DNA of 64,000 nt, taken from NCBI GenBank assembly GCA_027923505.1, contig BROI01000006.1, positions 992,001 through 1,056,000 of the forward strand. Reading direction: 5' to 3'. The DNA is from Mayamaea pseudoterrestris (taxonomy: Eukaryota > Bacillariophyta > Bacillariophyceae > Sellaphorales > Sellaphoraceae). The position numbers and the translations under genes are program-made. Below are positions 19,410-63,128 of the stretch, piece by piece. How positions within the stretch are numbered: the first letter of the stretch is position 1; each line of letters opens with the position of its first letter. The notes beneath the pieces are model-generated. The model was not told the DNA's origin and ran no database searches. It saw nothing but the letters and a program-made list of their open reading frames with translations.

Positions 19410-19800
19410 TGACGTAATTGACACTGGCACTCGTTTCGTACTATTGCCTTAATGACGTAATTGACACTGGCACTTGTTTCATACTATTGCCTTATGACGT
19501 AATTGACACTGGCACTCGTTTCGCAACATTGTCTTGATGACGTAATTGACACTGGCACTCGTTTCGCATTATTGCCTTGATGACGTAATTGACACTGGCA
19601 CTCGTTTCATACTATTGCCTCATGACGCAGTTTTCACTGGCACTCGTTTCGCACTAAAGCCTTATGATGTAGTTTTCACTGGCACTTGTTTCGTACTATT
19701 GCCTTGTGACGTAATTGACACTGGCACTCGTTTCATACTATAGCCTTATGACGTAATTGACACTGGCACTCGTTTCGCACTATAGCCTTGTGACGTATTT
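19410..19800 (+). promoter_or_regulatory. 42-bp repeat array 1 (nine units), helicase/aconitase promoter
   Basis: Nine tandem ~42-base units and a partial tenth. Type a reads TGACGTAATTGACACTGGC; type b reads TGACGCAGTTTTCACTGGC. Both continue ACTCGTTTC...ACTATTGCCTT. Order is aaaaabbaa. The array begins 295 bases upstream of the helicase ATG (19115, minus) and ends 217 bases upstream of the aconitase ATG (20017, plus). TGACGT/TGACGC are CREB/ATF-type bZIP half-sites. The regulatory role is inferred from position and conservation. Confidence 0.75.
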
Positions 19801-20016
19801 ACCATCTCAGTCGCGAGTGTCACGTGACGCGCCTCGAGGTTCGAGCGGCAGCTGCCGGATCCATTCGCTGTCGCTCGCTTGCTGCTGCTCTCGAAAAGGA
19901 TTCTTCCGTGCGAAGCACTTGGACGACTGGTCGCGAAGACATATATCTTCTCGCACTTTTCACTCTCTATATCAATCACTACTATAGCAGAAAAAGCGAG
20001 TCAATTAGCTACGACC

Positions 20017-22914
20017 ATGATGATGCTTGCTCACCGCCGCGTTGCGGCTCGAAGCTTGTCGACCTTGATGGGTCGGGTGAGTGCCGGCCGCAATTTGAAT
20101 CCAGCGACGTCTTGCCTAGGAACCATGCCTACGATGGATGTTACGATGTTGCAAGCCATAAGATCAGTTGTATCGTCATCTACGTTCAATCGCTCGTTTC
20201 ATTCGTCGTCTCCAGTGACATTATCAGCATCATCTCCATTTTTGAGCGACTACCAAAAGCACGTTGACGAGCGCGCGCAGATGGCAGCCGGCTTTGGAAT
20301 TGCGCCGCTGCCACTCAATGCCTCGCAAGTTTCGACATTGCTCAACGAACTGGAAAAGGAACCAGTCGATTCTGAAACCGCCAAGCAGCTTTTGGAATTA
20401 TTCACCGAGCGCGTTCCTCCTGGAGTCGATGAAGCCGCTTATGTCAAGGCGACGTGGCTGTCAAGCATTGCCAAGGGTTCGACGACTAGTCCTCACATGG
20501 ATCGTGCGCAAGCAATCAAGCTACTTGGAACCATGCAGGGCGGCTATAATGTTGCAGCGCTGGTGGAGTTGCTGGAAGATTCGGACGAAAGTCTTGCCGT
20601 ATTGGCGGGCGAGCAGCTGTCGCACACGCTCTTGGTCTTTGACGCCTACTATGACGTTGAAGCGCTTCATAAAAAGGGCGTCAAAGCTGCAACAACCGTT
20701 TTGGAAAGCTGGGCGAATGCCGATTGGTTTTTGAAAAAGCCAAAGGTTCCAACCAAAATGAGCGCCACCGTCTTTCGCGTCACTGGCGAAACAAACACCG
20801 ACGACCTTAGTCCAGCGCAGGATGCTTGGAGTCGACCCGATATTCCGCTACACGCCGTCAGCATGCTCAAGAATGCCCGCGATGGCATAGTGCCAGTCAA
20901 GGATGGAGAGATTGGGCCGCTCAAACAAATCAAAGAGTTGCAAGCCAAGGGATTACCATTAGCCTATGTTGGTGACGTGGTTGGGACGGGTAGTTCGCGC
21001 AAGTCGGCTACCAACTCGGTGCTTTGGTACATGGGTGATGCCATTCCGTATACACCAAACATTAAAGCAGGTGGTTTGTGCATTGGTCAAAAGATTGCGC
21101 CCATTTTCTTCAACACCATGGAAGACTCTGGTTCATTGCCGATTGAAATGTCCGTGGACGCTTTGAACATGGGTGATGCCATTGATGTTTATCCATATGA
21201 TGGCAAGGTTTGCAAGCATGAGACTGATGAAGTCATTTCCGAATTTACGCTCAAGACGCCTGTCATTTTGGATGAAGTCCGCGCTGGTGGACGCATTCCG
21301 CTCATTATTGGACGTGGATTGACGGCCAAGGCGCGCGAAACGCTTGGCCGAGCATCAGACTTGACGGATGTTTTTGTCATGCCGCAGCTTCCTGAAGGAG
21401 CAAACGAGCCAAAGGGATTTACGCTTGCGCAAAAGATGGTTGCCAAGGCGTGTGGATTACCAGAGACGCAAGGCGTCGTCCCCAATCAGTACTGCGAACC
21501 CATGATGACTACGGTTGGCAGTCAAGACACGACGGGTCCAATGACACGCGACGAACTACGCTCCTTGGCTTGCTTGGGATTTTCGGCCGATTTGGTCATG
21601 CAGTCGTTTTGCCATACCGCCGCCTACCCAAAACCAGTGGACGTTGTTACGCACCACACGTTGCCCGACTTTATTCGCACGCGTGGTGGAGTTTCGCTGC
21701 GACCAGGTGATGGAATCATTCACTCATGGATCAATCGCATGTTACTGCCCGATACGGTTGGAACGGGCGGTGACTCGCATACACGCTTTCCCATTGGAAT
21801 TTCCTTTCCGGCGGGTAGTGGATTGGTAGCGTTTGCGGCTGCAACGGGTATCATGCCGCTCGACATGCCGGAATCCGTCTTGGTGCGATTCAGTGGTGAC
21901 ATGCAACCTGGTATCACGCTGCGCGATCTTGTCCAGGCGATTCCATACACAGCCATTCAAATGGGACTGTTGACGGTGGAGAAGAAGGGCAAGAAGAATG
22001 TGTTTTCGGGACGCATTTTGGAGATTGAAGGCTTGCCAGACTTGAAGTGTGAGCAAGCGTTTGAGTTGTCGGACGCTTCGGCAGAGCGATCAGCGGCTGG
22101 ATGCACGATCAAGCTCAACAAGGAACCAATTATCGAATACATGAACTCGAACATTGTCATGCTCAAGTGGATGATTTCTGAAGGCTACGGCGATCGGCGC
22201 ACATTGGAGCGTCGTATCGCTCGCATGGAGGAGTGGGTTGCGAATCCAATCTTGATGGAAGCTGACAAGCAGGCGGACTATGCGTGTGTCATTGATATCA
22301 ATTTGAATGACTTGAAAGAGCCGGTGCTTGCTTTGCCAAACGATCCGGATGCCTGCGCCCTTCTGTCAGAGGTTGCTGGGTCCAAGATTGACGAAGTCTT
22401 TATTGGAAGCTGCATGACGAACATTGGTCACTTTCGCGCGGCAGGCAAGCTATTGAATCAGCTCCAAAAACCGCTTCCAACTCGTCTCTGGGTCGCCCCT
22501 CCCACCAAGATGGACGAAGCGCAGTTGATTGAGGAAGGATACTATGGCATATTTGGAGCGAGTGGAGCCCGCACGGAAATGCCGGGCTGCTCCTTGTGCA
22601 TGGGTAACCAGGCCCGCGTCGCTCCTGGATCAACGGTTGTTTCAACCAGTACGCGCAATTTCCCGAATCGCCTTGGACAAGGCGCGAACGTTTACCTCGC
22701 CAGTGCGGAATTGGCGGCCATTGCGAGCATCGAGGGTGAGCTTCCATCGGTTGATACCTACATGAAGTACATGAGCCAGGTCAATGCGACAGCTGCTGAT
22801 ACATACCGCTATTTGAATTTCGACGAGCTTCCGGACTATGTCAACTCGGCTGGATCAGTGGAGATTAGTGAGGAGATGAGAGCGGCGGCGCACAAGCTTT
22901 CAGCTGGACAGTAA
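20017..22914 (+). CDS. Aconitate hydratase, AcnB type, mitochondrial
   Basis: Predicted 965 residues, no intron. It interconverts citrate and isocitrate; bacterial AcnB also hydrates 2-methylaconitate. Domain order is AcnB-like: an N-terminal helical domain, then the swivel domain (TNTDDLSPAQ), then the Fe-S domains. Iron-sulfur cysteines are visible in GSCMTNIGHF and GCSLCMGNQ, with GGDSHTRFPIG for substrate binding. The first ~110 residues exceed bacterial AcnB and are rich in Arg and Ser, as in a mitochondrial presequence. I chose the ATG at 20017 (ACCATGATG), where the presequence starts; the frame is open up to 19879, but that stretch looks like 5' leader. It is divergent with the helicase across repeat array 1. 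Confidence 0.95.
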   Translation: MMMLAHRRVAARSLSTLMGRVSAGRNLNPATSCLGTMPTMDVTMLQAIRSVVSSSTFNRSFHSSSPVTLSASSPFLSDYQKHVDERAQMAAGFGIAPLPLNASQVSTLLNELEKEPVDSETAKQLLELFTERVPPGVDEAAYVKATWLSSIAKGSTTSPHMDRAQAIKLLGTMQGGYNVAALVELLEDSDESLAVLAGEQLSHTLLVFDAYYDVEALHKKGVKAATTVLESWANADWFLKKPKVPTKMSATVFRVTGETNTDDLSPAQDAWSRPDIPLHAVSMLKNARDGIVPVKDGEIGPLKQIKELQAKGLPLAYVGDVVGTGSSRKSATNSVLWYMGDAIPYTPNIKAGGLCIGQKIAPIFFNTMEDSGSLPIEMSVDALNMGDAIDVYPYDGKVCKHETDEVISEFTLKTPVILDEVRAGGRIPLIIGRGLTAKARETLGRASDLTDVFVMPQLPEGANEPKGFTLAQKMVAKACGLPETQGVVPNQYCEPMMTTVGSQDTTGPMTRDELRSLACLGFSADLVMQSFCHTAAYPKPVDVVTHHTLPDFIRTRGGVSLRPGDGIIHSWINRMLLPDTVGTGGDSHTRFPIGISFPAGSGLVAFAAATGIMPLDMPESVLVRFSGDMQPGITLRDLVQAIPYTAIQMGLLTVEKKGKKNVFSGRILEIEGLPDLKCEQAFELSDASAERSAAGCTIKLNKEPIIEYMNSNIVMLKWMISEGYGDRRTLERRIARMEEWVANPILMEADKQADYACVIDINLNDLKEPVLALPNDPDACALLSEVAGSKIDEVFIGSCMTNIGHFRAAGKLLNQLQKPLPTRLWVAPPTKMDEAQLIEEGYYGIFGASGARTEMPGCSLCMGNQARVAPGSTVVSTSTRNFPNRLGQGANVYLASAELAAIASIEGELPSVDTYMKYMSQVNATAADTYRYLNFDELPDYVNSAGSVEISEEMRAAAHKLSAGQ

Positions 22915-23035
22915 GGATGTGAATCGAGCGTTGAATGTTTAATGTTAACTTCAGACTAAATATTTTGATGACAAATGTGACTCCATGTTAACTTGTGTAT
23001 TCGTTATGAGGTTATTCTACGTCTTCGTTTTATGA

Positions 23036-25123: not shown

Positions 25124-28100
25124 TTCCTCTTTTAAAAGGAATTCTTTCTATCTCTATGCTCTCTGCCATGTACAGTAACCGCCTGATAGGTATAACAGGT
25201 GGATGAAAATGGCTACCGGTGGCTCATGGTCGCCATTCTCTCGGCCGTTTTCGGCTGTCGCATCGGTTTGCGATCCAAGACTCGACCAAGGGCAAAGCCG
25301 ACAGCAACAAGTTGGGTAGCTATCACGACTCGCCTGCGATACAGGTAGCTATTCACAGTCGAGCGACTGTACCGGTAGCTTGATAGAAGCAGGTGGATAC
25401 ATCATAGGATTAGTGTATAAGTTCCTGTATGCTTGCGTCTCGGACCGACTTTTCTACGTACCTCCAGCTCGCGCTTGATGCGGCATATCGGTTTAGGCAC
25501 TGTGAAGGAAAACAACTGGCCGTACAATCCATGTGTTGGTTTAGCTAAACGAATCAAGGGAAACAATATGTTTCATATCAATATAAAGTTAATTGTCCCT
25601 CTCCCGTCATTTACGATGCATCCTCCGTCCCCAAGGATACTCGTCGGTTTTCACGCTTCAAATAGGCCAGCTCCAATAAATGGCCCTTTGGTGGAGTAGC
25701 TGCGGCGTCGTGGGATCCGGCTTTAAGCAGCTCCATCTCATGGCCGGGTATCATTGCCCTAGAGTCGTCGGTACACTCCTCGACAGCCGGCTCGGGCAAA
25801 ATGGCCGCACTTGTCGAAGAATGTTTGTTCGCTCGGCGCTCTCTTGCCATCTCACCAATACTTTTGCGCTCAATTCTTACAGGAGTTGTCGGTAACGAAA
25901 TCGGCTGCTGCAAACATTCATTCTCCACGTGACTGGCATTGATGTTTCCTACCTCCTCGACTGCAGCGTCGACCGTCGGGAGTTTCTCTGCCGAACTCGG
26001 TGCTGGCACCACCAAATTGGCAATTTCAAGGTCATGAACAGATCCAGAAAGACGACGCGCCGACACAAGCGGCAGCAATGCGCTCTTATGTGGTCGATTA
26101 GCGGCTTTCTCCATAGACATTCGGGCCCTTCTGGCTTCGCTGAGTAGCATAGGGCTACCCACCGGCTTGACTCCAGCGTCTGGAGCGGATGGTATTGTCG
26201 TAAGTGATGGTTCATCCGTTGTGAAACAGTCGGGAGGCTCGACAAGATCCTCCTGTTCTTTTACTAAATTGTTGCAAGCAGTCTCTATCACATGTATCGG
26301 AGATGATTGACCTTCTGGCGAAAGTAAAGCCTCCTTTTTGAATGTGCATTCAACTCCGGACATCGTTTCTGCATTTGCCGCATTGATAGGGACTGATTCG
26401 GTTGGCATGCTCTGACATTCAGCTTCATGAGCTTTTGCTATATTGTGTGTCTCCGAAGAGGAATTGAAATGTGGTAGCTTGTCGGTGTGCTTGACAACTG
26501 TCGCTTTCATTGGAGAGCGAGATGCAATCGGCTTTGTTGGTGACCGAAGAATTAGATTTTCAAAAAGTGCTCGAGCTTGTTGGACACCGGAGCTCGGAAC
26601 ATTTTCTGGGTCATAGCTTTGTGGAGGCTCTGGCGTTTCCAACACTACTTGCGTCCTGCTATCCTCATTACAAGCGTTCTTGTCCATGGTAGCCAACGTA
26701 CTGACTTTGTTGTCGCTCGCCAAAGTACCAACACTCCCAACACTGTTGCTCGCTGACGACGAGACAAGTTTCTCGCGCTCGTAGATGGCTTTCATGTGAC
26801 TGCTCGGGTCCGGAATCATTCGACCCTTCTTGAAATCTTCAATAGTTCGTTCACTTGCATTTTTTAGCATATTATTGACAAGGACTATTAGAGAAGCGCC
26901 TCCTTCCTTTGGGTTCTTTGCGCTTAATGAGCCGCGGGACTTTGAACTTGACAGACTCGATGTTTCATTTGCTCTTCGTCGTTCATTTCGACTCTTCATA
27001 GCTTCTCGTTCATCGTACTTCGCCAATGCCCGACTCAAGATAGTGGTGAACGACGCGAGAATACCCAAAAGCGTAGTCGTCGGACCAGTCTGGAAACCTT
27101 CTCCACAATATCGGGAGAGTGCTTTACAATTATCAAGTGCTTGTTTTTTTACAGCGTCGAGCTCACGAAAAGCAACGTTACCAGCTTTCAAAAACTGTTC
27201 CAATCGAGCAATGCCACCTTCGATTGAATTTAGCCCGGAGTCATTCGTATGGTCAATACTTGAATTTTCTTCACTAGAATGCTTTGATTCCTTTGACTTT
27301 ATACTCTCAAGAAATTGTTCGCGTTGAGCAAACCCATCGGATTTTTGCTTCGTGTCAATTTCAGGTGCTGCTTCCTCAGACTTGCCTCTGGCAATCGCCG
27401 CAACCATAGCCGCGATGCTTCCCATGTCATTACGCAGCTGATTTGGTCCGCCTTTATGGCTTGTTCCTTTTAAAGCATCTAGTTCGACTTGACACAGCTG
27501 TAATGAATCCTTCAAATTTTGCGTCTCTGCAATCAGATCTCCAATTGCCATGCGGCTAGCAGTGTGACACTCAGGGAAATCGCTTGTCAGATCCAATGTT
27601 TGTCGTTGTCCATTTTCGACAAAAACTTCCACCAAAAAATCAAGCACTGTTATTTTATTATCCTTGCTCTTTGTCTCGGTGAGTTTTAAAAGACTGTCCA
27701 TTTTGAAACCAGCCGCTCGCCCCGCTTTCGTGCCCTCGTTCATGAAATTTCCGATGCGAAGGACCATACCCAGTACTTCTTGGAGTTTCTCGCTGCCCAT
27801 TACTTGCTTGCAAACAGTGGACAAGAGATTAAAGTTTCCAGTACGTGTTTTTGACTCTTGCTCAAACGACTCCATAGTCTGTAGCACCTTGACCTTTTGT
27901 TCAATCCGCTCAATGCTTTGAATATGACGGAACCATCGTTCAGCAGGTGTGAGATTGCTATCTGGTCCATCATAAGCTCGCACAAGTGCAATCTCCGCGA
28001 TTGTCGGCAAGAGTCCTCTCAGAAACTGAACTTTATCGCCTCGAATGCGTCTCAATGGGTCGAGATTAGCCAGTATATCAGCGAGTTCCCTGGATGGGAT

Positions 28101-31100
28101 ATCTTTGAAAGCCTTGAGGCTTATAGCAATGTTGTTCGAACGGGTCAGATCCAGCAAATTTGCTTTCCCTTTTTCCTCTGTACCTTGTGATGGCTTGTTA
28201 GAAACGACCGCAGTCTTCTTTTGAAATAAATCAATTAATTTGCTAATGTCGTGCCTTTCAGGTAACGATTCTTCTTCGTCCGCGGTTATGTTAGCAGCTT
28301 TCCACACGCTTTGATCGAGCTCTTTTCCGGACAGAACATTCCAATGCAAAGAGACAAGCTTACTAGATTGGCTTGTTGCGTCCTTCGAAGAAACTTTAGA
28401 ATTGATTGATGATTGGCTGTTATAAAAGGCGCGCCCCACGACTGCGACCATAACCTCCTCGCTGGCTCTTTCGTGCCTCATTTTTTTGTACACCTCATCC
28501 TTTGGAATTTGAATTTTCAATAACCTTCGATAATTTGAAGCCAAAGACTCGTCCTCATCTGAAAGGACTGACTTCAACAAGGACTTCGCGCCGTTTGCAC
28601 TCGCACATGGGTCAGAGTGAGCGTGATCGTCGGTTGTCCGACTTTTCTTGGCTTCCTCGCTCGCGTTTACGATCGCTCTAACCTTGTCCGCTGCACTTTC
28701 CTTTGTCATGCAGTGCTCAACACGATCGTACTCGATGCCCATTTGTAACATTTTTCGATACTTTGTCACTAGCGCTTCTTCTTTGTCGGTCAGCTTGCTG
28801 GTGGCTTCGCCTTCGATGTCGCCAAGTACCGCATCAACCTTGCTGCCGGTCGCCTTTGTGGACACAGTGGCTGCTTTAGCACCAAGCTTTGCTTCTAACA
28901 GACTTTTCAAATTCCCCCTGATAAAAGCTTTAGCAGCTGATCCGACAGAGCCGGAAATGGCTGAGACGGGGCTCGATGGATGGGTGGCGGCATCCACGAC
29001 TGATGGTGGTTGATCGGCCATTGGAACGAATGCACTGGCAACTGTGTCACTTTCGTTGGAGTGCTTGTCGAGTGTAACTGCACTGGATCCAGTCAGAAGC
29101 ACATTGCAGGCAGATTGGGATCGTTCGCTCGCACTATCGAGCTTGATACTTTCATTCAAGGCGTCGTTGACGTCTTTCGTTCGGCGCAGACGACGATATG
29201 TTTCCAAGACGATATGCTCCTCGTCGTTCAGTGACTCGACATGAATGGATTCGTCGTGAAGTGACTCGTTCGATTCGAAAGTATCAATATTCGGTTCATT
29301 GTGAGCAACTTCGTCGCATTTCATGCTATGAAACACGTTCGCAAATTTTAAGCAATCGTCCGAGCTAGTGAACGTCAACCATTTGTGCGCGTCAGACCGC
29401 AGAGTCACGTCAACCGTCAATGAGGACATATCAAGCGAAAATGTCTTGACATCGGAACGAGAAAGCTTCCACAGCACTCGCGTCGTAGGATTATTGGGCT
29501 CAGATTGAGCAACCATTAGCAACTGACTCCCGACAGTCACATGAGCAACACAATTGTTCTTGAGTCCAGGCGTGTCCTTCAGCTTGAAAACTCTTGCATT
29601 TGCAACCTTGTTATCCAATGAACAATCGTTCGGATCCTGTTTACATAAGATGTCTTTGCCATCTTCGTCAACGAAACTTCGCGCTTGCTCTACGCGATCG
29701 TTATCATTTGTACAGATAGGCAACGAAGTTTCACTTGAAAGCGAGGCGGCTGGTTGAAAATTATGCGAAGAAGAGCTCTTTTCGAAGTGACTCGTGTCCG
29801 ATGACGATTCGAAATTCATTCGCATTGCCATACTGTGGGCGTTGCTCGAGCTTCCAGCCGAGGATGCAAAAATCGTAGTCAGCGCCGTTGAACTCGGCGT
29901 CGTCCCAGACGGTTGCTCCAACGAGGTCGGACTGTCTTCAGAATCGACATAACGCATTGTTGCATCGTCGCTTTCTTCGTATTGCTGGACATGACGAAGC
30001 TTCAATGAGGCCCATTCCGGCGGCGGCAGTTCGTCGCTCGTATCAGAGACGGCGCCTGGGGTCTTGTTCGACGAATGAGACGGCTTTAGTTTGATGTCTG
30101 ACCACGTGACTGATCCATTCGATGCCAAAACACTCTGTTTTAACGCGTTGTTTGGGTATTTGGAATTGAATTGACCCAACGTAACTTCCAGTCCAGGATT
30201 AGAATCATCCTCGCCAAAGGCAGCCGTGCCCGCAGGAGATGGCAAGATTCGCGCATATGGATGATCGTCAGCCTTCTTCTCCTCTTCAAACTCGGCATCG
30301 GTGCTGCAGGTTAGCGTCGCAGTCAGATCAAGCTTTCGATGGCCATATAGCTTGTGTTCGCTCTCATCATCGCCAGAAACTGATCTCATCGTTACGATTG
30401 CATCCATTTCTCCATCTGTCCTCGATTGCGATAGGTTGTTGTCCCAATGATCGTTCGTAAACGTTCGAGTGTACACAGCTGGCTCGTGTGAATTGCTGTG
30501 TTCCGAGTGAGCAGTGCTGTCGTCCTTGAAAATTGTCCGCATCGTCATGATCTTGTCAACGTCTTCGTTTGTTCGAGCTGCATGAAGTCCGTCGTCAATC
30601 TCTGCTTCGTCATTCTCCTCGTAATGCGACTCTCCCGATTCAACGACGCTGTACGACGACCTCGATTGCGAGATTGGATCGCAACTCTCTTCAAGCGATG
30701 ATGTCGTCGCAAGTGAAGGCAATTGTGCTGCAATCTCCTTTCCAAGGTTTTTGTCATTTACGACTTGTGTCGCATGAAGGCATTCGACTGGCGCATGCTC
30801 CTTGAGATGCAGATTCATGGCATTGAGTGCCGACTTTGTCTTGGAATCGAACTTGAACACTTTAGAAGGGCGAACGACAGTTGGCGTCGGCGGCGTCTCT
30901 CCAGACAATACAGCTTTAAAACTTGACCATAGCTAGTCGAACAATATTTGAATGATTTGAAAGTGAGAGTTTGCAATTCAAAGTTGTCACGCACATGAAT
31001 GCATGCAGTTGAAACGTACCTGCGAGTGCTGCCCCGACACTTCGGCTTGCAGAATTTCAATAAACTCAGAGTAGCCATCCACTTCTTCCTCTGATGCATC

Positions 31101-36566: not shown

Positions 36567-37261
36567 TCATTTGCCTTGGCCTTGTAGCGTAATGACAATG
36601 TTTCGCTTGTGTCCGCCACCGTAACCTCCTTGATCGCGATGCTCACACAAGTAGATGCCCTGCCAAGTACCAAGAGCAAGCCTTCCCTTGGTGATTGGAA
36701 CGTTAACTGACGCTCCCATCAAACTCGACTTGACGTGGCCAGGCATGTCGTCGTCACCTTCCAGTGTGTGTTTAAAGGTTCCATCGCGGTTCCACTGAGC
36801 GGGTACAATTCTGTTGAGAGCCGTCTCCATATCTAGACGTACGTCGGGATCAGCATTCTCGTTAATGGTCAGTGAAGCGGATGCTGTGACAATGAGTGAG
36901 CAAACGTTTTAGTAGGACAATCTCCTGCCAACGTCACGAAACAACAACTGCACAATTTTCCCTTCACAAATGACCTACTATGCTGAATGAACAGGTTCAT
37001 GAGACCCATTTCCATTCCAGCCAGATCGTTTTGAATTGCTCGCTGAATCTGCGAGGTGACCAAGTGGCAGCCTCGGCTGGGAGCAGTAATGGAAATGGTG
37101 TGTTGAAAGAACAGGGGCTTCATGTTTGTCGTGCTGCTGCTATCGTTTGAAATCGTTAAAGCCAAACAAGTAGAAGATGAAGAGGCGAGTACTGGCAGAA
37201 CAAAGGATGCTGATAATGAAAGAAAGGAGGACAAGACCAAGATGGACGAAAGGATTCTCAT
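36567..37261 (-). CDS. YjbQ/UPF0047 family protein, plastid-targeted
   Basis: Predicted 199 residues from exons 37261-36979 and 36883-36567. The 95-base intron (GTAGGT at 36978, ending TCACAG) splits a Thr codon and restores the family motif FIQHTSASLTINENADP. Further family motifs are HTLEGDDDMPGH, PITKGRLALGTWQG and YLCEHRD. The family is compact and metal-binding; YjbQ members have been reported to show thiamine-phosphate synthase side activity. The N-terminus from the chosen start is a signal peptide followed by SASFVLP, an ASAFAP-like plastid motif. An in-frame ATG at 37306 is the alternative start. The gene is divergent with the acidic protein at 37894; array 2 begins only 72 bases upstream. 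Confidence 0.93.
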
Positions 37262-37332
37262 GGTGGAAAACAATCGAAAATGCATTCGTTGTCGATGCCG
37301 AGTCAATACCGATGACTTGCACTTTCGTCTTG

Positions 37333-37721: not shown

Positions 37722-37893
37722 CACGTCTACTCCGTCTCTACGTAGGATCAGTACTGAATTCTCGTAGGCTCAAGTCGCTGGACAACCTCAAGCGTTGCGG
37801 CCATGACGAAAGAAGACCATTGGACGACTGTCGATTGATCGACTGCTTTCGTCCTGTGAACCATTGACACTAGAACGTCAATTACTACAAATA

Positions 37894-38640
37894 ATGTCTT
37901 CCGCCAATTACTTCAAGACTCTATTGTACCGCCAATTGGCTGGCTTCCGACGCACGCTTTCGAGCGAGGCCGTATGGATCGTTCCCGCTGGTCTTGGCGC
38001 TGGATGGCTCCTTTGGCCGGCCATGGACCATGAATGGAAGATGGAACTGGGACTGGCACGCGATCCTGACGCCGAAATGTTCAAGGTGCAAGAAATGAAG
38101 AAGCAGCGTTACGAAGCCAAGTTTGGCAAGAGTATGGACGCCAAGGATGAAGACGAAGAGGAGGAAGATGAGCCTGAAGATGACGAGGAGGAAAAGGAGG
38201 ACGGACCTGAAGAGGAAGCACCAGAGGAAGAGTCCGAGGAGGAAGGAATTGGCGGAGGTGATGATGATGCCAATGACACGGGCGACGATGACGACGATGC
38301 TGCTGGCGACGACGAGGAAGAGGAGGAAGAAGAAGAAGAATCACCAATTCAAGTGCCGCCCCTCTACGTTCCCACCAAGGGCAAGCTTACGCCAGAACAA
38401 GTGTGGGACAATTACACAATCAGGGTATGTATCGAGTGTAGGTGAGAGGTGCTGTTTGTGCGTCGATTCGCTGTCTAATTGGTTCTTGTTTTCTTAGGCG
38501 GTCAACTGGTTGGCAGACGACGATGATGACGAGGATGAAGGTACGTATTGTCGCATCGAAGGTTTTAAGTTTGTTAGCATATCAAATGACTCACTCTTTA
38601 ACGTTGCTGCATTTGTATCGATGCAGAGGATGACGAGTAA
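37894..38640 (+). CDS. Small acidic membrane protein, function unknown
   Basis: Predicted 195 residues from three exons: 37894-38424, 38498-38540 and 38627-38640. Introns of 73 and 86 bases start GTATGT and GTACGT and end TTCTTAG and GATGCAG. The exon sum is an exact multiple of three. A basic, amphipathic N-terminus precedes one hydrophobic segment (~27-44, VWIVPAGLGAGWLLWPAM), as in small mitochondrial inner-membrane proteins. Residues ~78-152 are almost only Glu and Asp, then a short PPLYVPTKG segment and VWDNYTIRAVNWL before an acidic end. The last part recalls accessory subunits of respiratory complexes, but no family was recognised. Confidence 0.8.
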
Positions 38641-41234: not shown

Positions 41235-43538
<2,304 letters not shown>

Positions 43539-44584: not shown

Positions 44585-46170
44585 ATGATGATGTTGGCAC
44601 CACTCTGGTGTGATTTGGGCGTATACAGGGCATGTTATATGGGCAAGTGATTGTCAAGGCATCTGCAGGTGGAGACTGGTGAGAAGTTCTCACCAGTCAC
44701 ATTGCAGTCTACTGAGACACCAGCCATGCATATCATTATGTAGCACAGACGGAATAATGATGTTGGCACCATTCTGGTGTAATATGGGCAGCTACAGGGC
44801 TTGCTGTATGATAGGGGCGTTTGAATGTCACGGCATCTGCGGGCTGAGACTGGTGACAAGTTGTCACCAAATACATTGCCATCCCCTGAGACACCAGCCA
44901 AGCCTACCATCTTGTAGCGCAGCCTACATAATGATGTTGGCACCATTCTGGTGGAATTTGGGCACCTACAGGGCTTGCTGTAGGGGCGTTTGAATGTCAC
45001 GGCATCTGCAGGCCGAGACTGGTGACAAGTTGTCACCAAATACATTGCCATCCCCTGAGACAACACACAAGCCTACCATCTTGTAGCGCAGCCTATATAA
45101 TGATGTTGGCACCATTCTGGTGTAATTTGGGCACCTACAGGGCTTGCGGTAGGGCAATGGAATGACACCGCATCTGCAGGCTGAGACTGGTGACAAGTTG
45201 TCACCAAATACATTGCCATCCCCTGAGACACCAGCCAAGCCTACCATCTTGTAGCGCAGCCTATATAATGATGTTGGCACCATTCTGGTGTAATTTATGC
45301 ACGTACAGGGCTTGCGGTAGGGCAATGGAATGACACCGCATCTGCAGGCTGAGACTGGTGACAAGTTGTCACCAAATACATTGCCATCCCCTGAGACACC
45401 AGCCAAGCCTACCATCTTGTAGCGCAGCCTGAATAATGATGTTGGCACCATTCCAGTGTAATTTGGGCACCTGCAGGGCTGGCTGTAGAGGCATTTGAAT
45501 GTCACGGCATCTGGGGGCTGAGACTGGTGACAAGTTGTCACCAAATACATTGACATCCCCTGAGACAACTGCCAAGCCTACCATCTTGTAGCGCAGCTGG
45601 AATAATGATGTTGGCACCTTTCTAGTGTAATTTGGGCACCTACAGGGCTTGCGGGACGGTGACAAGTTGTCACCAAATACATTGCCATCCCCTCAGACAC
45701 CAGATAAGCCTACCATTTTGTAGCGCAGCCTGAATAATGATGTTGGCAGCATTCCGGTGTGTTTTGGGTGTATACAGGGTATGTTATAGGGGCAATTGAA
45801 TGACACGGCATCTGGGGGCTGAGACTGGTGACAAGTTGTCACCAAATACATTGACATCCCCTGAGACAACTGCCAAGCCTACCATTTTGTAGCGCAGCCT
45901 GAATAATGATGTTGGCAGCATTCCAGTGTAATTTGGGCACCTACAGGGCTTGCTGGAGAGGCGTTTGAATGTCACAGCATCTGCAGGCTGAGACTGGTGA
46001 CAAGTTGTCACCAAATACATTGCCATCCCCTGAGACACCTGCCAAGCCTACCATCTTGTAGCGCAGCCTAAATAATAATGTTGTCAGCATTCCGGTGTGA
46101 TTAATAGGTTGCACTTGCAGAGGCTTGTTGAAGGGCATTTGAATGTCACGGCATCCTGGGCCTGTGATGA
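44432..46170. repeat. Satellite B, block 1 (169-bp units)
   Basis: About ten units. Each has the dyad GGTGACAAGTTGTCACC, then CATTGCCATCCCCTGAGACA, a CACCA-TTC-TGGTG hairpin, and CTACAGGGC. Units in this block are more varied in length than in block 2, with insertions and deletions near 45655 and 45780. Minus-strand ORFs of 80-90 codons recur in each unit but change frame, since 169 is not a multiple of three. Confidence 0.93.
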
Positions 46171-49100: not shown

Positions 49101-49410
49101 GGCAGTTATGATTGATCCAAGCCATGGGCTCAATTTATTTTGTGGTTAAGGTCAATCCAAGCCATGAGTCCATCCTCTGTTGTATTAAGGGACAATCCAA
49201 TCCAAGGATCATTGCTAAAGTGTGGTAGAGATTGATCCATCCAAGCAGTTTCTGTTAACTTGTGGTTATGGTCAATGCACCCCGCATCCCATGGGTCCAT
49301 GTTGATGATTTGCATCCCATGTGTCTACATTTTTTGGCAGTTATGATTGATCCAAGCCATGGGTTCATCTTAATTTGTGGTTAAGGTCAATCCAAGCCAA
49401 GCCAAACCAT
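46171..49410. repeat. Satellite C (about 235-bp units)
   Basis: About 13 units of a separate family, spaced 235/234 bases (GCATCCCATGGG at 46681, 46916, 47150). Typical pieces are GATCCAAGCCATGGGTTCAA, ACTTGCAGTAGAGATTGATC and GGGACAATCCAATCCAAGGA. Short CCAAT/AATCC runs expand in some units (47290, 48480). One B unit (about 46425-46580) is embedded near its left end, so the families are interleaved. Non-coding. Confidence 0.93.
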
Positions 49411-52400: not shown

Positions 52401-55400
52401 TGACAAGTTGACACCAAATACATTGCCATCCCCTGAGACACCAGCCAAGCCTACCATCTTGTAGCGCAGCCAGAATAATGATGTTGGCACCATTCTGGTG
52501 TAATTTGGGCACCTACAAGGCTTGTGGTAGGGGCGTTTGAATCTTACAACATCTGCAGGCTGACTGGTGACAAGTTGTCACCAAATACATTGCCATCAAC
52601 TGAGACACAAGCCAATCTTACCATCTTGTTGTGGAGACGGAATAATGATGTTGGCACCATTCTGGTGTAATTTGGGCACCTACAAGGCTTGCGGTAGGGG
52701 CGTTTGAATGCCATGGCATCTGCGGGCTGAGACTGGTGACAAGTTGTCACCAAATACATTGCCATCCCCTGAGACACCATCCAGGCATATCATCTTGTTG
52801 CATACACTGAATAATGATGTTGGCACCATTCTGGTGTAATTTGGGCACCTACAGGGCCTGCTGTAGGGACGTTTGAATGTTATGGCATCTGCAGGCTGAG
52901 ACTGGTGACAAGTTGTCACCAATTACATTGCCATCCCCTGAGACACCAGCCAGGCATACCATTTGTAGCGCAGCCTATATAATGATGTTGGCACCATTCT
53001 TTTGTAATTTGGGCATTTACAGGGCCTGCTGCAGGGGTGTTTGAATGTCACAGCATCTGCAGGCTGAGATTGGTGACAAGTTGTCACCAAATACATTGCC
53101 AACCCCTGAGACGCCAGCCAGGCATATCATCTTGTAGCGGAGACTGGACAAATGATGTTGGCACCATTCTGGTGTAATTTGGGCACCTACAGGGCCTGCT
53201 GTAGGGGCGTTTGAATGTCACGGCATCTGCGGGCTGAGATTGGTGACAAGTTGTCACCAAATACATTGCCATCCCCTGAGACGCCTGCCAGGCATATAAT
53301 CTTGTAGCGGGGACTGCAAAATGATGTTAGCACCATTCTGGTGTAATTTGGGCACCTACAGGGCCAGCTGTAGGGGCGTTTGAATGTCACAACATCTGCA
53401 CACTGAGACTGGTGACAAAATGTCACCAAATACATAGCCATTATCTGAGACACCAGCCAATCTTACCGTCTTGTAGAGCAGCCTGAATAATGATGTTGGC
53501 ACCATTCTGGTGTAATTTGGGCACCTACAGGGCCTGCTGTAGGGGTGTTTGAATGTCACAGCATCTGCGGGCTGAGATTGGTGACAAGTTGTCACCAAAT
53601 AGATTGCCATCCCCTGAGACGCCAGCCAGGCATATAATCTTGTAGCGGGGTCTGCAAAATGATGTTGGCACCATTCTGGTGTAATTTGGGCTCCTACAGG
53701 GCCTGCTGTAGGGGCGTTTGAATGTCACAGCATCTGCGGGCTAAAACTGGTGACAAGTTGTCACCAAATACATTGCCATCACCTAAGACACCAGCCAACC
53801 TTACTGTCTTGAACCGGTAGCGCAGCCTGAATATTGATGTTGGCACCATTCTGGTGTAATTTGGGCTCCTACAGGGCCTGCTGTAGGGGTGTTTGAATGT
53901 CACAGCATCTGCGGGCTGAGATTGGTGACAAGTTGTCACCAAATACATTGCCATCTCCTGAGATGCCAGCCAGGCATATCATTTTGTAGCGCAGCCGAAA
54001 AAATGATGTTGGCACCATTCTGGTGGAATTTGGGCACCTGCAGGGCCTGCTGTAGGGGCGTTTGAATGTCACAGCATCTGCGGGCTAAAACTGGTGACAA
54101 GTTGTCACCAAATACATTGCCATCACCTAAGACACCAGCCAACCTTACCGTCTTGTAGCGCAGACTGAAAAATGATGTTGGCACTATGCTTGTGTAATTT
54201 TGGCACCTACAGGGCCTGCTGTAGGGGCGTTTGAATGTCACGGCATCTGCAGGCTGAGATTGGTAACAAGTTGTCACCAAATAAATTGCCAGCCCCTGAG
54301 ACGCCAGCCAGGCATATCATCTTATTGCGCAGCCTATATAATGATGTTGGAACCATTTCTGGTGTAATTTGGGCACCTACAGGGCCTTCTGTAGGAATGT
54401 TTGAATGTCACAGCATCTGCGGGCTGAGATTGGTGACAAGTTGTCACCAAATACAGCCATCCCCTGAGACGCCAGCCAGGCATCTCATCTTGTTGCGGAG
54501 ACTGAATAATGATGTTGGCACCATTCTGGTGTGATTTGGGTGTATACAGGGCCTGCTGTAGGGGCGTTTGAATGTCACAGCATCTGCGGGCTAAAACTGG
54601 TGACAAGTTGTCACCAAATACATTGCCATCACCTAAGACACCAGCCAACCTTACTGTCTTGAACCGGTAGCGCAGCCTGAATATTGATGTTGGCACCATT
54701 CTGGTGTAATTTGGGCACCTACAGGGCCTGCTGTTGGGGTGTTTGAATGTCACAGCATCTGCGGGCTGAGATTGGTGACAAGTTGTCACCAAATACATTG
54801 CCAAACCATGAGATGCCAGTTAGGCATATCATTTTGTAGCGCAGCCGGAAAAATGATGTTGGCACCATTCTGGTGGAATTTGGGCACCTGCAGGGCCTGC
54901 TGTAGGGGCGTTTGAATGTCACAGCATCTGCGGGCTAAAACTGGTGACAAGTTGTCACCAAATACATTGCCATCACCTAAGACACCAGCCAACCTTACCG
55001 TCTTGTAGCGCAGACTGAAAAATGATGTTGGCACTATTCTTGTGTAATTTGGGCACCTTCAGGGCCTGCTGTAGGGGCGTTTGAATGTCACGGCATCTGC
55101 AGGCTGAGATTGGTGACAAGTTGTCACCAAATACAGCCATCCCCTGAGACGCCAGCCAGGCATATCATCCTGTTGCAGAGCCTGAATAATGATGTTGGCA
55201 CCATTCTGGTGTAATTTGGGCACCTACAGGGCCTGCTGTAGGGGCGTTTGAATGTCACAGCATCTGCGGGCTAAAACTGGTGACAAGTTGTCACCAAATA
55301 CATTGCCATCACCTAAGACACCAGCCAACCTTACTGCCTTGTACCGGTAGCGCAAACTGAAAAATGATGTTGGCACCATTCTGGTGTAATTTGGGCACCT

Positions 55401-56540
55401 ACAGGGCTTGCGGTAGGGGCAATGGAATGTCACGGCATCTGCGGGCTGAGACTGGTGACAAGTTGACACCAAATACATCCCCTGAGACAGCAGCCAAGCC
55501 TACCAAATTGTAGCGCAACCAGAATAATGATGTTGGCACCATTCTGGTGTAATTTGGGCACCTACAGGGCTTGCGGTAGGGGTGTTTGAATGTCACAGCA
55601 TCTGCGGGCTGAGACTGGTGACAAGTTGTCAATAAATACATTGCCATCCCCTGAGATGCCAGCCAGGCATATCATCTTGTTGCGGAGACTGAATAATGAT
55701 GTTGGCACCATTCTGGTGTGATTTGGGCACCTACAGGGCCTGCAGTAGGGGCGTTTGAATGTCACAGCATTTGCGGGCTGAGACTGGTGACAAGTTGTCA
55801 CCAAATACATTGCCATCCCCTGAGACACTAGCCAAGCCTACAATCTTGTAGCGCAGCCGGAATAATGATGTTGGCACCATTCTGGTGTAATTTGGGCACC
55901 TGCAGGGCATGTTATAGGGGCATTTGAATGACAAGGCATCTGCGGGCCAAGACTGGTGACAAGTTGTCACCAATCACATTGCCATCCCCTGAGACACCAG
56001 CCAGGCATGCCATCGTGTAGCGCGGACAGAAAAACGATGTTGGCAGCATTCCGGTTTGATTTGGGTGTATACAGGGCATGTTATAGAGGCAATGGAATGA
56101 CACGGCATCTGCGGGCTGAGACTGGTGACAAGCTGTCACCAAATACATTGCCATCCCCTGAGACAACGGCCAAGCCTACCATCTTGTAGCGCAGCCTGAA
56201 TAATGATGTTGGCAAAATTCTGGTGTGATTTGGGTATATACAGGGCATGTTATAAGGGCAATGGAATGTCACAGCATCTGCAGGCTGAGACTGGTGACAA
56301 GTTGTCACCAAATACATTGCCATCCCCTGAGACACCATCCAAGCCTACCATTTTGTAGCGCAGCCTAAATAATAATGTTGGCACCATTCTGGTTTGATAA
56401 GGGCATATACAGGGCATGTTATAGGGGCAATTGAATATCCTGGTATCTGCTGGCTGAGACTGGTGACAAATTGTCACCAATCATATTGCAGTCTACTGAG
56501 ACATCAACCAGGCATACCATTTTGTAGTGCAGACTGAACA
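49411..56540. repeat. Satellite B, block 2 (169-bp units)
   Basis: About 42 units, very regular in the left part (CCATCC at 49551, 49720, 49889, 50058). From about 52900 the units drift to a variant with GAGATTGGTGACAAG, GACGCCAGCCAGGCATATCA and CTAAAACTGGTGAC, and alternating variants form two-unit or longer higher-order repeats (for example 53690-54290 recurs near 54550-55060). The dyad GGTGACAA-G-TTGTCACC is kept in nearly all units. Non-coding. Confidence 0.95.
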
Positions 56541-58474: not shown

Positions 58475-60850
58475 ATGTGGAGCAAAAATACATTTCAATT
58501 TTCAGTGCGTCACAATTTCTTCCGTCGCGACACCTTTTCGACATCAACAAGATTCCGTCACGCTCATGGCAGCAGACGAACCTTTCACTTTGCGACGACA
58601 GAATATGCAAAATGCTTTCTAGACTTGCCGCAACCCGATCCTGTCGCTCTTCGAAAACAAGCAATTGAATTCATCGACTCGTTCGACAAGAATCTGTGGT
58701 ACGATGAGCCGGTGAGTGATAGGCTAGTTGTTCTTTCAAAATCCTTTTCGGTTTCTGCATTCTGACACGACGTTATGATTGCTGCTGCTCCAGATGGTTA
58801 CACTACTATGCGGAAATGCACTGACTGATAACTCATCGGCACCCGTTGATACGATTGACGCACTCGGATCGATCAATGGTAAACAAATCATGGCGTCTCC
58901 CGAACAAATCCAGCAGTTGAAGGAACACGTCAAAACCTTTGTCTCGCCCTATACTGACTTGCGACAAAAAATGCGAGCAGTCGAACAAGAGTTACTGACC
59001 AATTATGCTGGTTTTCTAATTGGTATCCAATGCATTGACTTTCAAAAGCAAGATGGCATTACAGAGGCAAGTACGAAGTACCGGTTGCGAGTAGGCGTTT
59101 TATCCCATATATTGTCATGTTTACTCGTCCACTCGTTCTTTGATAGATTGAGGAAGCAGTCATGGCCAATGCCGTCGAGCGTCGATTGAATGATTTGCTC
59201 TTGAGGGACGAAGCACTCAAAATGGTTCACATTGATCGACGACCAATCTATGTTTCGTGCGTCTCCAACTTTAGCAACTTTTTGGATCTTTTTCGAAAGT
59301 CGATTCGATCGTTAGAAGTCGGAGTGCCTGTTGTAATACTTGGGCGGTCAAACACGGCGCAACACTGCTTTCGCTGGACGCAGTTGCTGGTCCAGCTCAT
59401 GACGGAGCAAGGTGTGGATCCTGGAATGGTCACTTTTCTTTCTTGCGCACTGGACGATATTAAAGATATTACTAGATCCTGTAAAGACCAAACCGGCAAC
59501 TTGTACACGACATGCTCGCGAGAACTGGCTGCGGCGATCAAATCTGACTATCCGAACACTGTGGCATCAACTGGAGGCCCCAACACGCTGGTGACAACCC
59601 AACTGACCGACGCTGTCAAGCAGGCGGTCCAAACGAGTGCAAGTATCGAGTCATCTGGTCAGTGCACAGCCTTGCGCCATTGTGTTGTTCCACTGGACAC
59701 GAGCGATGAAGATTTGGAGGGCGTCTTTGGATCGATCCATGAAATTAACGACGCTCCACACGCTGTCAAAAACTTGCAGTTTGATGGAGTCTTTAGCAAT
59801 CATAAAGGCAGTGCCGCGCCGGACGACGGCAGCGGTTACAAGCGGCATGCAAACGCCGATGCTTATTACAAGATTAGTGATGAGCTTCCGCCAGCAGGTA
59901 TGAATGAGTACTGGCGACGAGTCGCTATTGATTTTTCAAAATTGGATTTGCAGGCGAATGGCAATGTAAACAAACTTGCCACGTGGCTTAATACGAATCA
60001 GCCAATTTCGCTGGCCGTGAATGGTCCACGTAAGGAAGCACTAAAGCTGGGTTTAGAGCTATTTGGAAAGACTGGTATGGTTGTAAACACGATTGGAAGT
60101 ACAGACGATGCCGACATGGCACCGGCAATGACTTGCCAAGCTCGACCCCAGGAAGCAGAAATATTTGGAGAATTTCCACCGCGAACTGATTTGAACAAGT
60201 ATACTCGCTTTCCAGTCGTTGTTCCTTCCTCGAATCCATCGTATGGAGCTACCTATGTGGAAGCATTCTTGGCGAATAAGACTATCCCGTCATGGTTTGG
60301 GGAGTCAACGAAGAATCTGCTCGGTGAACTAGAAAGTCCATTGGTCAGAGGATACTGCGTGATCCTGATCAAATACCTTCAAGACGTTGCACGCCAAAAT
60401 CCAAAACAAGGCTTTGGGAAGAGTCGAACAGCCGTCTGGGGTCTTCAGCGTCCCCCGCTTGGCACAAAGACGATTCTGCGCTGCTCGCCGTCAGTTGACT
60501 GGGATGGTGTTTGCCCCATTTTTGTGCTGTTCCATGCGACAAATGCTCGACCACAGGTCGAGTTGTCCATCGACCCAGCCAATAAGGAGCTCGTTGATCT
60601 CTGCCGCAAGCATAACCTGTCTCATGACGTGGAAACAGCTGTTGAGGCGGAGGAACGAGCAATGTCGCAGCCGGACCTCATGTTTAACACAGTTCAAGTC
60701 GAGGAGCATTTGCTTAGTAGCTTTCCCATGGCTGGGAACTTTGTCAGTCTCTACTTCCCGCTCGGTCACATTAAAAGCACGAAGCCCAACGACCTCGAAT
60801 TTACATTGTTAGCGCGACTTTCCGACAAGTGGCTCAACACACTCTTTTAA
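58475..60850 (+). CDS. Aldehyde-dehydrogenase-like protein, probably mitochondrial
   Basis: About 745 residues in three exons: 58475-58711, 58794-~59090 and ~59147-60850. Intron 1 (82 bases, GTGAGT...TCCAG) is clear. Intron 2 is less certain: GTAGGC at 59091 to AG at 59146 keeps frame but is only 56 bases; GTACGA at 59071 to AG at 59156 gives 86 bases. The first ~45 residues are Arg/Ser/Phe-rich, like a mitochondrial presequence. The aldehyde dehydrogenase fold is suggested by VPVVILGRSNTAQHCFRWTQ, a cofactor-strand analogue, and by SSGQCTALRHCVV at ~346-358, matching the catalytic-cysteine motif. Elsewhere it is divergent and longer than the usual ~500 residues, so the activity is uncertain. 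Confidence 0.72.
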
Positions 60851-61191: not shown

Positions 61192-62565
61192 TCAAGTTTG
61201 CCCGCCCAATGACTTCTTGAACACCAAACTCGCCCTTGACGCCACCTCTCCCTTGGCGTCAGCCTTTTTTACAGTATGTTGGTAAGTCTGCTGACAATTT
61301 CCAAACATGTGCGTGACATCGCCGTCCATGACCCAAAACGAGTGCACTCGGCCACGCGAGTCTGCGTTCTCCCGAAAGGCAAACCTCCTCGTTGCCCCAA
61401 TGCTCACCACGGCCGTATCAAACTCCCAGAGTGTGCCTTGGTCAGGATCGGAATGGTAACGCATGGCACTTGTGCCATCGTAGTAGTGATTGATCAAGCA
61501 GCAATCGTAGTCAATGCCGAGTGGAATTTTCAACGCATCTCGCGTCGTTTGCACCAATGGTGACCAATCTTGCCGGCGCATGCTCTTGCCCGAGTACAGA
61601 AACGGGCCAACCGACGTTTCGCCCTGCCACGCCGTCCGCCGTCGTTCCAAAACGGGCAAGCCCTGGTTAGTCTTAATGGTTGCTTCATCGCCGCTTGCAA
61701 AGCTGACCTGCGACAAGAGGCTGTCGACGTTAAGATGAAGTGCACTGGGTCCCTCGTTTAATGCAACGTTTGCGCAAAGGTTTGGATGAATGCGAAACGG
61801 CAAGCCCAGCTCATGATAGGCTCGTTCAATGTGGCTTGGTACGAGAGGAAGCGAGTAATTGCCCCGTGAGGCACTCATCGAGCGTAAGCCCTCCAGCGCC
61901 CAAAACAGTCCCGACAATTGGTGCGGTTCAAATGCTTTGAGCTGGTCGACTGTAACGTCACTCCAAAAGTTCATTAGTGGATATGTAATGGCTCGTAACC
62001 AATTGCTTGACATATCAGTTGGTTGGTTCTTGACTAGAATGCGAATTACGACAGAAGCCGCTTTTGTTGCGTCAACTAGCGATCCGATGGATTGGTGATT
62101 ATACGGCATCCGGCTCAGCAAGCGATGCAGAATGAATTGAGCGTCGTCGTCACCGTCGCAGTCGAGCAAAAGTGGAAGACTCGCTGCTGCTGCGGCTGCA
62201 TCGATATCTCTCTCGCTACAATTTTCTGCTTCATTTGCATATCTTTGCTGGTTGTCGAGTGCGACAAGCTGCTTGCAGAGCCGAGTCCAAATGAGGGCGT
62301 TAATGTGAAGATAGTCGCCGCTGGCTTCACCATGACATGCTTGAAACCCCAACGGCCGAGCGACTCGCTGCAAGAGTCCTTCCGGCGTGACGCACTGCTG
62401 GAGCGTGGCAATGAGACTGCTACTTGTACTGCTGCTGGAGCTTGTCGTTGTTGATAAAAGGTGCGTCGCTTGTCGGCGCGTGGTGCCGATCGGGCGAACA
62501 ACAAGTGCACCAACACCGACATGCAGCAGCAATGAAAGCGTCACAGCGACGCTCGTCCTTCGCAT
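61192..62565 (-). CDS. AlkB-like 2-oxoglutarate/Fe(II) dioxygenase
   Basis: 457 residues, one exon. The C-terminal ~200 residues form the dioxygenase: NHYYDGTSAMRYHSDPD holds the iron ligands His371 and Asp373, YQHTVKK holds His430, and RASLVFKK supplies the Arg that binds 2-oxoglutarate. AlkB relatives remove alkyl groups from DNA, RNA or protein by oxidation; the substrate here is unknown. The first ~300 residues are not recognised. The N-terminus has a hydrophobic signal-like stretch (LLLHVGVGALVVRP), possibly organelle targeting. It is divergent with the pseudouridine synthase across array 3, whose polarity points towards this gene. Confidence 0.88.
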   Translation of the reverse strand: MRRTSVAVTLSLLLHVGVGALVVRPIGTTRRQATHLLSTTTSSSSSTSSSLIATLQQCVTPEGLLQRVARPLGFQACHGEASGDYLHINALIWTRLCKQLVALDNQQRYANEAENCSERDIDAAAAAASLPLLLDCDGDDDAQFILHRLLSRMPYNHQSIGSLVDATKAASVVIRILVKNQPTDMSSNWLRAITYPLMNFWSDVTVDQLKAFEPHQLSGLFWALEGLRSMSASRGNYSLPLVPSHIERAYHELGLPFRIHPNLCANVALNEGPSALHLNVDSLLSQVSFASGDEATIKTNQGLPVLERRRTAWQGETSVGPFLYSGKSMRRQDWSPLVQTTRDALKIPLGIDYDCCLINHYYDGTSAMRYHSDPDQGTLWEFDTAVVSIGATRRFAFRENADSRGRVHSFWVMDGDVTHMFGNCQQTYQHTVKKADAKGEVASRASLVFKKSLGGQT

Positions 62566-62732
62566 GATTGCAGCAGCCGTCTTTCTTTTGGACTATTAAA
62601 ACAACAACTGCAGATGACAATGGTTCCTTTGCTAATCATAAAGTGTGATGAAGCGCATGAATGGCTCCGCCTTGGTCGAAAGGCGTTCAAACAGTAAATG
62701 GCGACATGCGGCACAGTATCAACCTAATAAAA

Positions 62733-63128
62733 AACGTCATGAGGCAATAGTACGAAACGAATGCCAGTGTCAATAACGTCACAAGGCAATAGTACGAAAC
62801 AAGTGCCAGTGTCAATTACGTCACAAGGCAATAGTATTAAACGAGTGCCAGTGAAAACTGCGTCATAAGGCAATAGTACGAAACGAGTGCCAGTGAAAAC
62901 TACGTCAGAAAGCAATAGTAAGAAAACGAGTGCCAGTGAAAACTACGTCACTAGGCAATATTGCGAAACGAGTGCCAGTGAAAACTGCGTCTCGTAGGCA
63001 ATAGTGTGAAACGAGTGCCAGTGAAAACTGCGTCGCAAGGCAATAGTACGAAACGAGTGCCAGTGTCAATTTCGTCACAGGGCAATAGTACGAAACGAGT
63101 GCCAGTGTCAATTTCGTCCCAAGGCAAT
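62733..63128 (-). promoter_or_regulatory. 42-bp repeat array 3 (nine units), AlkB/RluA promoter
   Basis: Nine units on the minus strand, order aabbbbbaa read in that direction, plus a partial unit. It ends about 170 bases before the AlkB-like start (62565) and lies about 60 bases from the pseudouridine synthase start (63191). The two units nearest 63128 carry GACGAAATTG instead of GACGTAATTG. Confidence 0.75.

Follow-up and report, generated by a model that had tools for sequence, protein, structure and literature searches.

Three nine-unit arrays of a 42-bp repeat in divergent gene gaps: candidate clusters of a composite binding site

Three arrays between divergent genes

The 64-kb window, by which we mean the entire stretch of DNA analyzed here, contains three tandem arrays of one 42-bp unit, each situated between the start codons of a divergently oriented gene pair and each comprising exactly nine complete units (27 in total, counted with the anchor CACT[GC]GCA[CT]T). 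With confidence that is evenly balanced, we interpret them from their sequence as putative groupings of many copies of one composite binding site, which would act in bidirectional promoters and would all go back to a single ancestral array. The arrays were delimited by TRF with a 42-bp period: A1 (19410–19797, + strand; 9.2 copies, score 553), A2 (37333–37717, + strand; 37329–37717 in TRF, 9.3 copies, score 498), and A3 (62734–63128, − strand; 9.4 copies, score 506). The A3 units, being on the − strand, extend from 63119 down to 62740. Unit length is 42 bp in 22 of the 27 units and 43 bp in the other five (three in A1, two in A3), the last unit of each array being set to 42 bp in this count. 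The edges are worn: A1 ends just inside a tenth unit, A2 has a degraded start of a tenth, and A3 is bordered by partial units on both sides. The TRF and anchor counts agree with the original prediction of nine full 42-bp units in each of three arrays, and its further claims, that the window has no array elsewhere and that the flanks are unshared, were likewise borne out. A unit profile run on the window with the arrays masked recovered no convincing further unit (best E 0.48), and the six flanking stretches (118–517 bp) have no common exact match longer than 12 bases (blastn, word size 7, E up to 1). A search of the window for structural RNAs gave no Rfam match at gathering scores.

A1 separates an SF1-type helicase (15676..19094, − strand; Pfam AAA_11/AAA_12), for which the first exon from the ATG at 19094 and an 86-bp intron are both inferred, from an AcnB-type aconitase B with an N-terminal extension (20017..22914, + strand; Pfam; NCBIfam TIGR00117 acnB, 1434 bits), a type that occurs in diatoms. 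A2 lies between a YjbQ/UPF0047 protein (36567..37261, − strand), with a signal-peptide-like N-terminus, an inferred 95-bp GT-AG intron, and a Pfam match (PF01894) on its second exon, and a small acidic protein (37894..38445, + strand) with no Pfam or NCBIfam match. A3 is placed between an AlkB-like protein with a 2OG-Fe(II) oxygenase domain (61192..62565, − strand; Pfam PF13532) and an RluA-like pseudouridine synthase (63131..64000, + strand, running past the window end; Pfam PF00849) that starts at ATG 63131 or 63191 and whose NCBIfam rluA_subfam match falls under the curated cut-off. The predicted location between head-to-head start codons thus holds for all three arrays, with the amendment that the helicase appears to start at 19094 in a short inferred exon and not in the open frame beginning at 18888. 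The six flanking genes display no evident common pathway, which we count against a regulatory reading. Introns and plastid-type presequences, which we take to be of the ASAFAF kind, the diatom plastid-type motif, are present among the window genes and, together with the AcnB-type aconitase, point to a diatom-like nuclear genome.

The arrays occupy three of the five divergent gaps and none of the 10 tandem or convergent gaps; the remaining divergent gaps separate a nucleotide-sugar transporter from ThiC, and formin from ORF1406, the latter being a less certain pair, and that these two gaps are empty speaks against a regulatory reading. Statistical support for this placement is modest, with P=0.001–0.02 across tests (P=0.022 in a hypergeometric test and 0.0013 by length, the latter rising to 0.017 once the 8.4-kb gene-poor gap is dropped), and these values depend on a gene map with hand-chosen spans (formin extended to 31994, ORF1406 started at 32232, ThiC at the presequence ATG near 41564, RluA at 63191) and without several family-less ORFs (e.g., 4476–5063, 8868–9497, and 58779–59189). 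The gene models combine ORFs, family matches, and two inferred introns; Pfam was searched with 27 different stretches, and the window has 91 ORFs. Between the start codon and the outermost complete unit lie 315 bp for the helicase, 226 bp for aconitase, 183 bp for the acidic protein, 174 bp for the AlkB-like protein, 71 bp for YjbQ, and 71 or 11 bp for the RluA-like protein, depending on its ATG, so that the YjbQ and RluA-like gaps leave little space for a promoter outside the array. The two 71-bp spacers, of which that of RluA depends on an uncertain start codon, are equal in length but only weakly alike (2.4% of 500 shuffles were as good).

Subtypes and uneven conservation within the unit

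The 27 units fall into two subtypes, A and B, distinguished by a second TGAC that is kept in one and absent from the other. Every array contains both, in the order AAAAABBAA in A1, AAABBBBBA in A2, and AABBBBBAA in A3, with A units at both ends in each case. Across units, a 17-column core, TT..CACTGGCACTCGTTT, is almost unchanging: rare changes number 5 in the 17 core columns versus 21 in 11 tail columns (Fisher P=1.6 × 10–5), where the core/tail boundary was drawn after the data were seen and a scan test that keeps the overdispersion gives P=0.046.

At the unit start, 22 of the 27 aligned unit rows have TGACGT or TGACGC, which we take to be the bZIP site published for diatoms; only five of the nine A3 units keep it, a point against a regulatory reading. 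Edge copies included, the hexamer occurs 25 times in the 1,176 bp of array versus 71 times in the remaining window on both strands (96 in total), and its orientation within the arrays always follows the strand of the unit (+/−: A1, 9/0; A2, 10/0; A3, 0/6).

The unit length also equals 14 codons, and forward frame 1 of A2 is almost open, with a single stop, as might be expected of a coding repeat. We regard this explanation as extremely improbable: the 43-bp units of A1 and A3 shift the reading frame, no frame of any array is free of stops (A1 and A3 have at least four in each), and the common variants in the near-open frame, placed by hand, lie at codon positions 1 and 2 rather than 3.

Ancestry of the arrays and neutral alternatives

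The presence of both subtypes in all three arrays argues for common ancestry, and a common ancestor can pass on its copy number; the nine units in each may therefore be a legacy of descent. Of the predicted dispersed cis-regulatory module, the location, the unrelated flanks, and a quiet core beside a diatom bZIP-type site lend support, but a functionally fixed number of nine is not established.

The strongest rival to a regulatory reading is a neutral dispersed minisatellite, whereby a genome rich in repeats made a few copies of a short array, each inheriting the nine units of the source, and these copies persist in promoter gaps because such gaps are either open chromatin or the sole tolerant spaces between packed genes. 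We consider this a tentative but real possibility. It is consistent with tandem units that descend from a common source and lie at separate loci without flank homology, with the sharing of both subtypes and of terminal A units, and with the other tandem families that TRF detects in the window, with periods of 169, 235, and 356 bp. Further, the 42-bp units are as distant within arrays as between them and have no array-specific signature (Fst-like 0.021, P=0.22), and the 169-bp satellite of the window, used as a control, behaves in the same way (Fst-like 0.060, P=0.14); hence, homogeneity is no proof of function. Over the whole unit, the clumping of rare changes (2.0) is also no stronger than in that satellite (2.55). 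On the other hand, the rows of the other families have 1.9 to 41.9 copies and lie in two gene-poor stretches, unlike the constant nine of the start-codon arrays, and when the 169-bp satellite is sampled in 300 matched draws, a run of columns as quiet as the core turns up in just 3.0–3.7% of them. Simple recent copying of whole arrays in register is not visible either: same-index units of different arrays are not clearly closer than permuted ones (P=0.072), and not closer at all with subtype kept (P=0.86). The concordance of subtype order across the arrays is no better than that of random contiguous blocks (P=0.22). Dispersed minisatellite families in general comprise related arrays at separate sites whose flanks are not shared; the start-codon placement, equal copy number, and uneven within-unit conservation set the present arrays apart from them.

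The occurrence of one array type at three sites in both orientations could alternatively reflect a transposable-element remnant or passenger, namely a non-autonomous element with an internal minisatellite and a preference for promoters. One pair of imperfect inverted arms loosely spans A1 (17 nt, 82%), with its left member some 300 bp ahead of the array, and another spans A2 (14 nt, 86%), with its left member inside YjbQ. However, the arms of A1 and A2 differ in sequence, A3 has none, and no flanking ends are common to the three sites, rendering such an origin improbable.

Putative regulatory role and comparison with known systems

Under the composite-site reading, each array would be a homotypic cluster forming the proximal regulatory region of its bidirectional promoter. 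Each unit would offer a single putative half-site for a bZIP, of the TGACGT/C type known from diatoms, and after it the near-invariant block, a candidate site for a second factor. As 42 bp amounts to four helix turns at 10.5 bp per turn, bound proteins would lie on the same side of the DNA, and might maintain an open gap and activate one gene or the two together. A single ancestral array would have reached different promoters, yielding the three seen here, with local duplication and shuffling or exchange of units after the spread. If functional, such a ready-made multi-site module spread to unrelated promoters could rewire gene control in one step. To our knowledge, diatoms are a major algal group with a little-known cis-regulatory code, and three arrays per 64 kb suggest that many could exist genome-wide. 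It appears unlikely that the nine-unit array is a mobile promoter cassette of fixed size, complete copies of which enter bidirectional promoters genome-wide and enroll unrelated neighbors in one bZIP-centered regulon, with the two subtypes arranged A-B-A in each cassette. A chromatin boundary or replication-start element in place of a gene switch would, by analogy, fit the tandem repeats of yeast promoters, reported to occupy nucleosome-free regions and to inhibit nucleosomes (PMC3899988); we deem it very improbable.

The exact unit and exact two-unit tandem patterns had no matches in viral and prokaryote contigs, as expected for a eukaryote, and A1 had none in a plasmid DNA collection; absence from viral, prokaryotic, and plasmid DNA says little. 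No published mention of unit strings of 14–16 bases was found in literature text. Among the matches listed, the accessible portions of the literature on diatom promoter repeats (PMC4686930 and PMC3899988 included) held nothing array-like, and that on bZIP14 yielded no motif. We count against a regulatory role that, in the main text of one paper on promoter targets of PtAUREO1a (PMC10967249), a search found none of the words TGACGT, tandem, aconitase, bidirectional, and divergent.

In Phaeodactylum, TGACGT/C is, per the accessible text, the target of PtbZIP11 and constitutes the CO2/cAMP-responsive elements of the carbonic anhydrase (CA) and bestrophin promoters (PMC11142338). These elements have the same hexamer as the arrays, if the T/C freedom at base six is read as the same, and likewise occur in several copies near the start codon. 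PtBST1 is described with two motifs on one strand and four on the other in a stretch of about 300 bp, and PtCA1 and PtCA2 with motifs on both strands, in contrast to the one-stranded arrays, whereas the motifs of PtBST2-4 are reported as one-directional, like those of the arrays (PMC11142338). The arrays further differ in that the hexamer recurs in a tandem unit fixed at 42 bp and is accompanied every time by a second, longer core. TGACGT is also the aureochrome (LOV-bZIP) site, reported as part of the probe used for in vitro tests of PtAUREO1a (PMC4721966); the hexamer is common to both, but the arrays have one site per 42 bp beside a second core. Lastly, tandem repeats described in yeast and human promoters resemble the arrays in that their units may carry factor sites, lie in open chromatin, and tune expression (PMC3899988). 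What matters in the cases described there is variation in copy number at individual loci, whereas the arrays present one unit nine times over at each of three loci.

Placement of the arrays and their gene setting

TRF with a 42-bp period placed the three arrays at 19410-19797 (A1, forward strand), 37329-37717 (A2, forward strand), and 62734-63128 (A3, reverse strand), and cutting at the anchor CACT[GC]GCA[CT]T yielded 27 units, nine per array, of 42 bp in 22 cases and 43 bp in five (the final unit of every array being trimmed to 42 bp by script). A search of the rest of the window with the unit profile, arrays masked, gave a best e-value of 0.48; the original prediction of three nine-unit arrays and none elsewhere was thus correct. 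Remnants of further, worn units are present at the array edges. As had also been claimed, all three lie between divergent genes: helicase/aconitase (A1), YjbQ/acidic protein (A2), and AlkB-like/RluA-like (A3). In our gene map, three of the five divergent gaps hold an array, with none in the four convergent or six tandem gaps (p=0.022 by a hypergeometric test; with gaps weighted by length, p=0.0013, or 0.017 without the gene-poor 8.4 kb gap). The divergent gaps with no array are those of nucleotide-sugar transporter/ThiC and of the less certain formin/ORF1406 pair. Between an array's outermost complete unit and the start codon, the distance on the units' 3′ side is 226 bp for aconitase, 183 bp for the acidic protein, and 174 bp for AlkB-like; on the 5′ side it is 315 bp for helicase, 71 bp for YjbQ, and 71 or 11 bp for RluA-like, which leaves YjbQ and RluA small promoter space outside the array. 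Similarity between the 71-bp spacers of these two genes is weak, being equaled in 2.4% of 500 shuffles. An exact 11-bp match, TTGGACGACTG, at 19919-19929 and 37820-37830 (e-value about 0.2; possibly chance) lies ~110-130 bp past the final units of A1 and A2, ahead of aconitase and the acidic protein.

The window is eukaryotic DNA, with a GC content of 48.8% and no tRNA detected by ARAGORN. YjbQ reads as a continuous protein across an inferred 95-bp GT-AG intron, an inferred 86-bp intron shifts the helicase start to 19094, and the aconitase belongs to the AcnB type, at 1434 bits. ASAF-like motifs after a signal peptide mark plastid presequences in diatoms and related algae, and a signal-peptide-like N-terminus followed by such a motif was found in a GST-like protein (LLLASAFAF), YjbQ, and ThiC. 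These features suggest that the DNA comes from a diatom-like alga. The ThiC gene (41285-43538) comprises two open frames with an intron likely near 42590-42672, judging from the profile ends, and its plastid-type presequence begins near 41564. A 1765-aa open frame at 25611-30908 contains a formin FH2 domain.

Anatomy and conservation of the unit

Three fully linked columns (8, 11, and 12) of the 27 aligned units separate two subtypes, A (GTAATTGACACTGG or near; n=15) and B (G(C/T)AGTTTTCACTGG; n=12), ordered AAAAABBAA in A1, AAABBBBBA in A2, and AABBBBBAA in A3. Other common variants fall at columns 6 (T/C), 30 (G/A), 31 (T/C), and 43; the column pairs 8/30 and 8/31 display all four main combinations, which shows that there has been short-range shuffling or recurrent change.

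Rare changes number five in the 17 core columns (9-28) vs 21 in the 11 tail columns (Fisher p=1.6 × 10–5), with common-variant and two insertion columns excluded and the core/tail boundary chosen after the data had been seen; one unit of A3 (A3_5) has an additional one-base insertion within the core. A quiet-run scan statistic on the unit columns reached p=0.00075 with a Poisson null and p=0.046 with permutation of whole columns. When the 169-bp satellite, another tandem family of the window, was sampled in 300 overlapping draws, equally quiet runs turned up in 3.0% of them for a length of 12 columns and in 3.7% for 16. Taken over all columns, rare changes clump no more than they do in this satellite (2.0 vs 2.55), which counts against special conservation of the core.

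Counted by hand on the aligned rows, the first six bases are TGACGT or TGACGC in 22/27 units (8/9 in A1, 9/9 in A2, 5/9 in A3). The arrays, 1,176 bp in all, carry 25 such hexamers, edge copies and one chance copy included, and the remaining window 71 on both strands (96 overall). The CACTGGCACTCGTTT part of the unit is more conserved than this TGACGT/C part; a string search of the published literature found no match to it, and we know of no binding partner for it. The notation TGACGT/C, read here as TGACGT or TGACGC, denotes the PtbZIP11 target in a passage of PMC11142338 citing Ohno et al. 2012, and a passage of PMC4721966 uses TGACGT as the aureochrome site. The main text of PMC10967249, on PtAUREO1a promoter targets, contains none of the terms TGACGT, tandem, aconitase, bidirectional, or divergent.

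Origin of the arrays

Units are as alike between arrays as within them (Fst-like 0.021, p=0.22) and both subtypes occur in every array, pointing to common ancestry of the three. Adjacent units of an array resemble each other more than expected by chance (p=0.009, a value that takes in subtype clustering), favoring local duplication, and same-index units across arrays show a weak likeness (p=0.072) that is absent with subtype kept (p=0.86). The equal copy number may be inherited. Of the predicted promoter module, the shared divergent-gap location stands, while nine copies as a functional sign are not established. The two arrays of the 169-bp satellite, taken as a control and sampled as 8 and 37 monomers passing an anchor and length filter, behave similarly (Fst-like 0.060, p=0.14), so that homogeneity of the 42-bp family is by itself no sign of function. 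The main rival reading, possible if somewhat doubtful in our judgment, is a neutral minisatellite surviving in promoter gaps.

The evidence makes a transposon origin unlikely: no shared ends were found in the flanks of the three arrays, which agrees with the prediction of unshared flanks, and imperfect inverted arms around A1 and A2 are loose and mutually different, with A3 having none. A coding repeat was ruled out, as every frame has stops and the 43-bp units in A1 and A3 break frame. Patterns of one unit and of two tandem units had 0 matches in viral and prokaryotic contigs, a result uninformative for a eukaryote.

The 169-bp satellite, whose unit includes the palindrome-like GGTGACAAGTTGTCACC, occupies 44429-46102 and 49447-56538 (the second with 41.9 copies by TRF), flanking a 235-bp satellite at 46578-49399 (11.9 copies, internal 40-bp sub-repeats). 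A 356-bp tandem family with palindrome-like pieces in its unit lies in the gene-poor left part (6145-8084 and 11786-14983).

Predicted role and relation to known promoter repeats

The most likely reading of the sequence, held at roughly even confidence, is that the arrays are homotypic clusters of a composite site. Each unit would combine a bZIP half-site with a putative second core site, the composite would recur every four helical turns, and the array would serve as a proximal element of a bidirectional promoter, with binding and transcription as predicted steps. Tandem repeats of yeast and human promoters are described in a passage of PMC3899988 as acting via factor sites or nucleosome exclusion, and diatom-virus promoters, according to a passage of PMC4686930, carry a short motif in three tandem copies. 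Unlike the repeats described in those passages, the present ones share one longer unit, which recurs in nine copies at each of three unrelated promoters.
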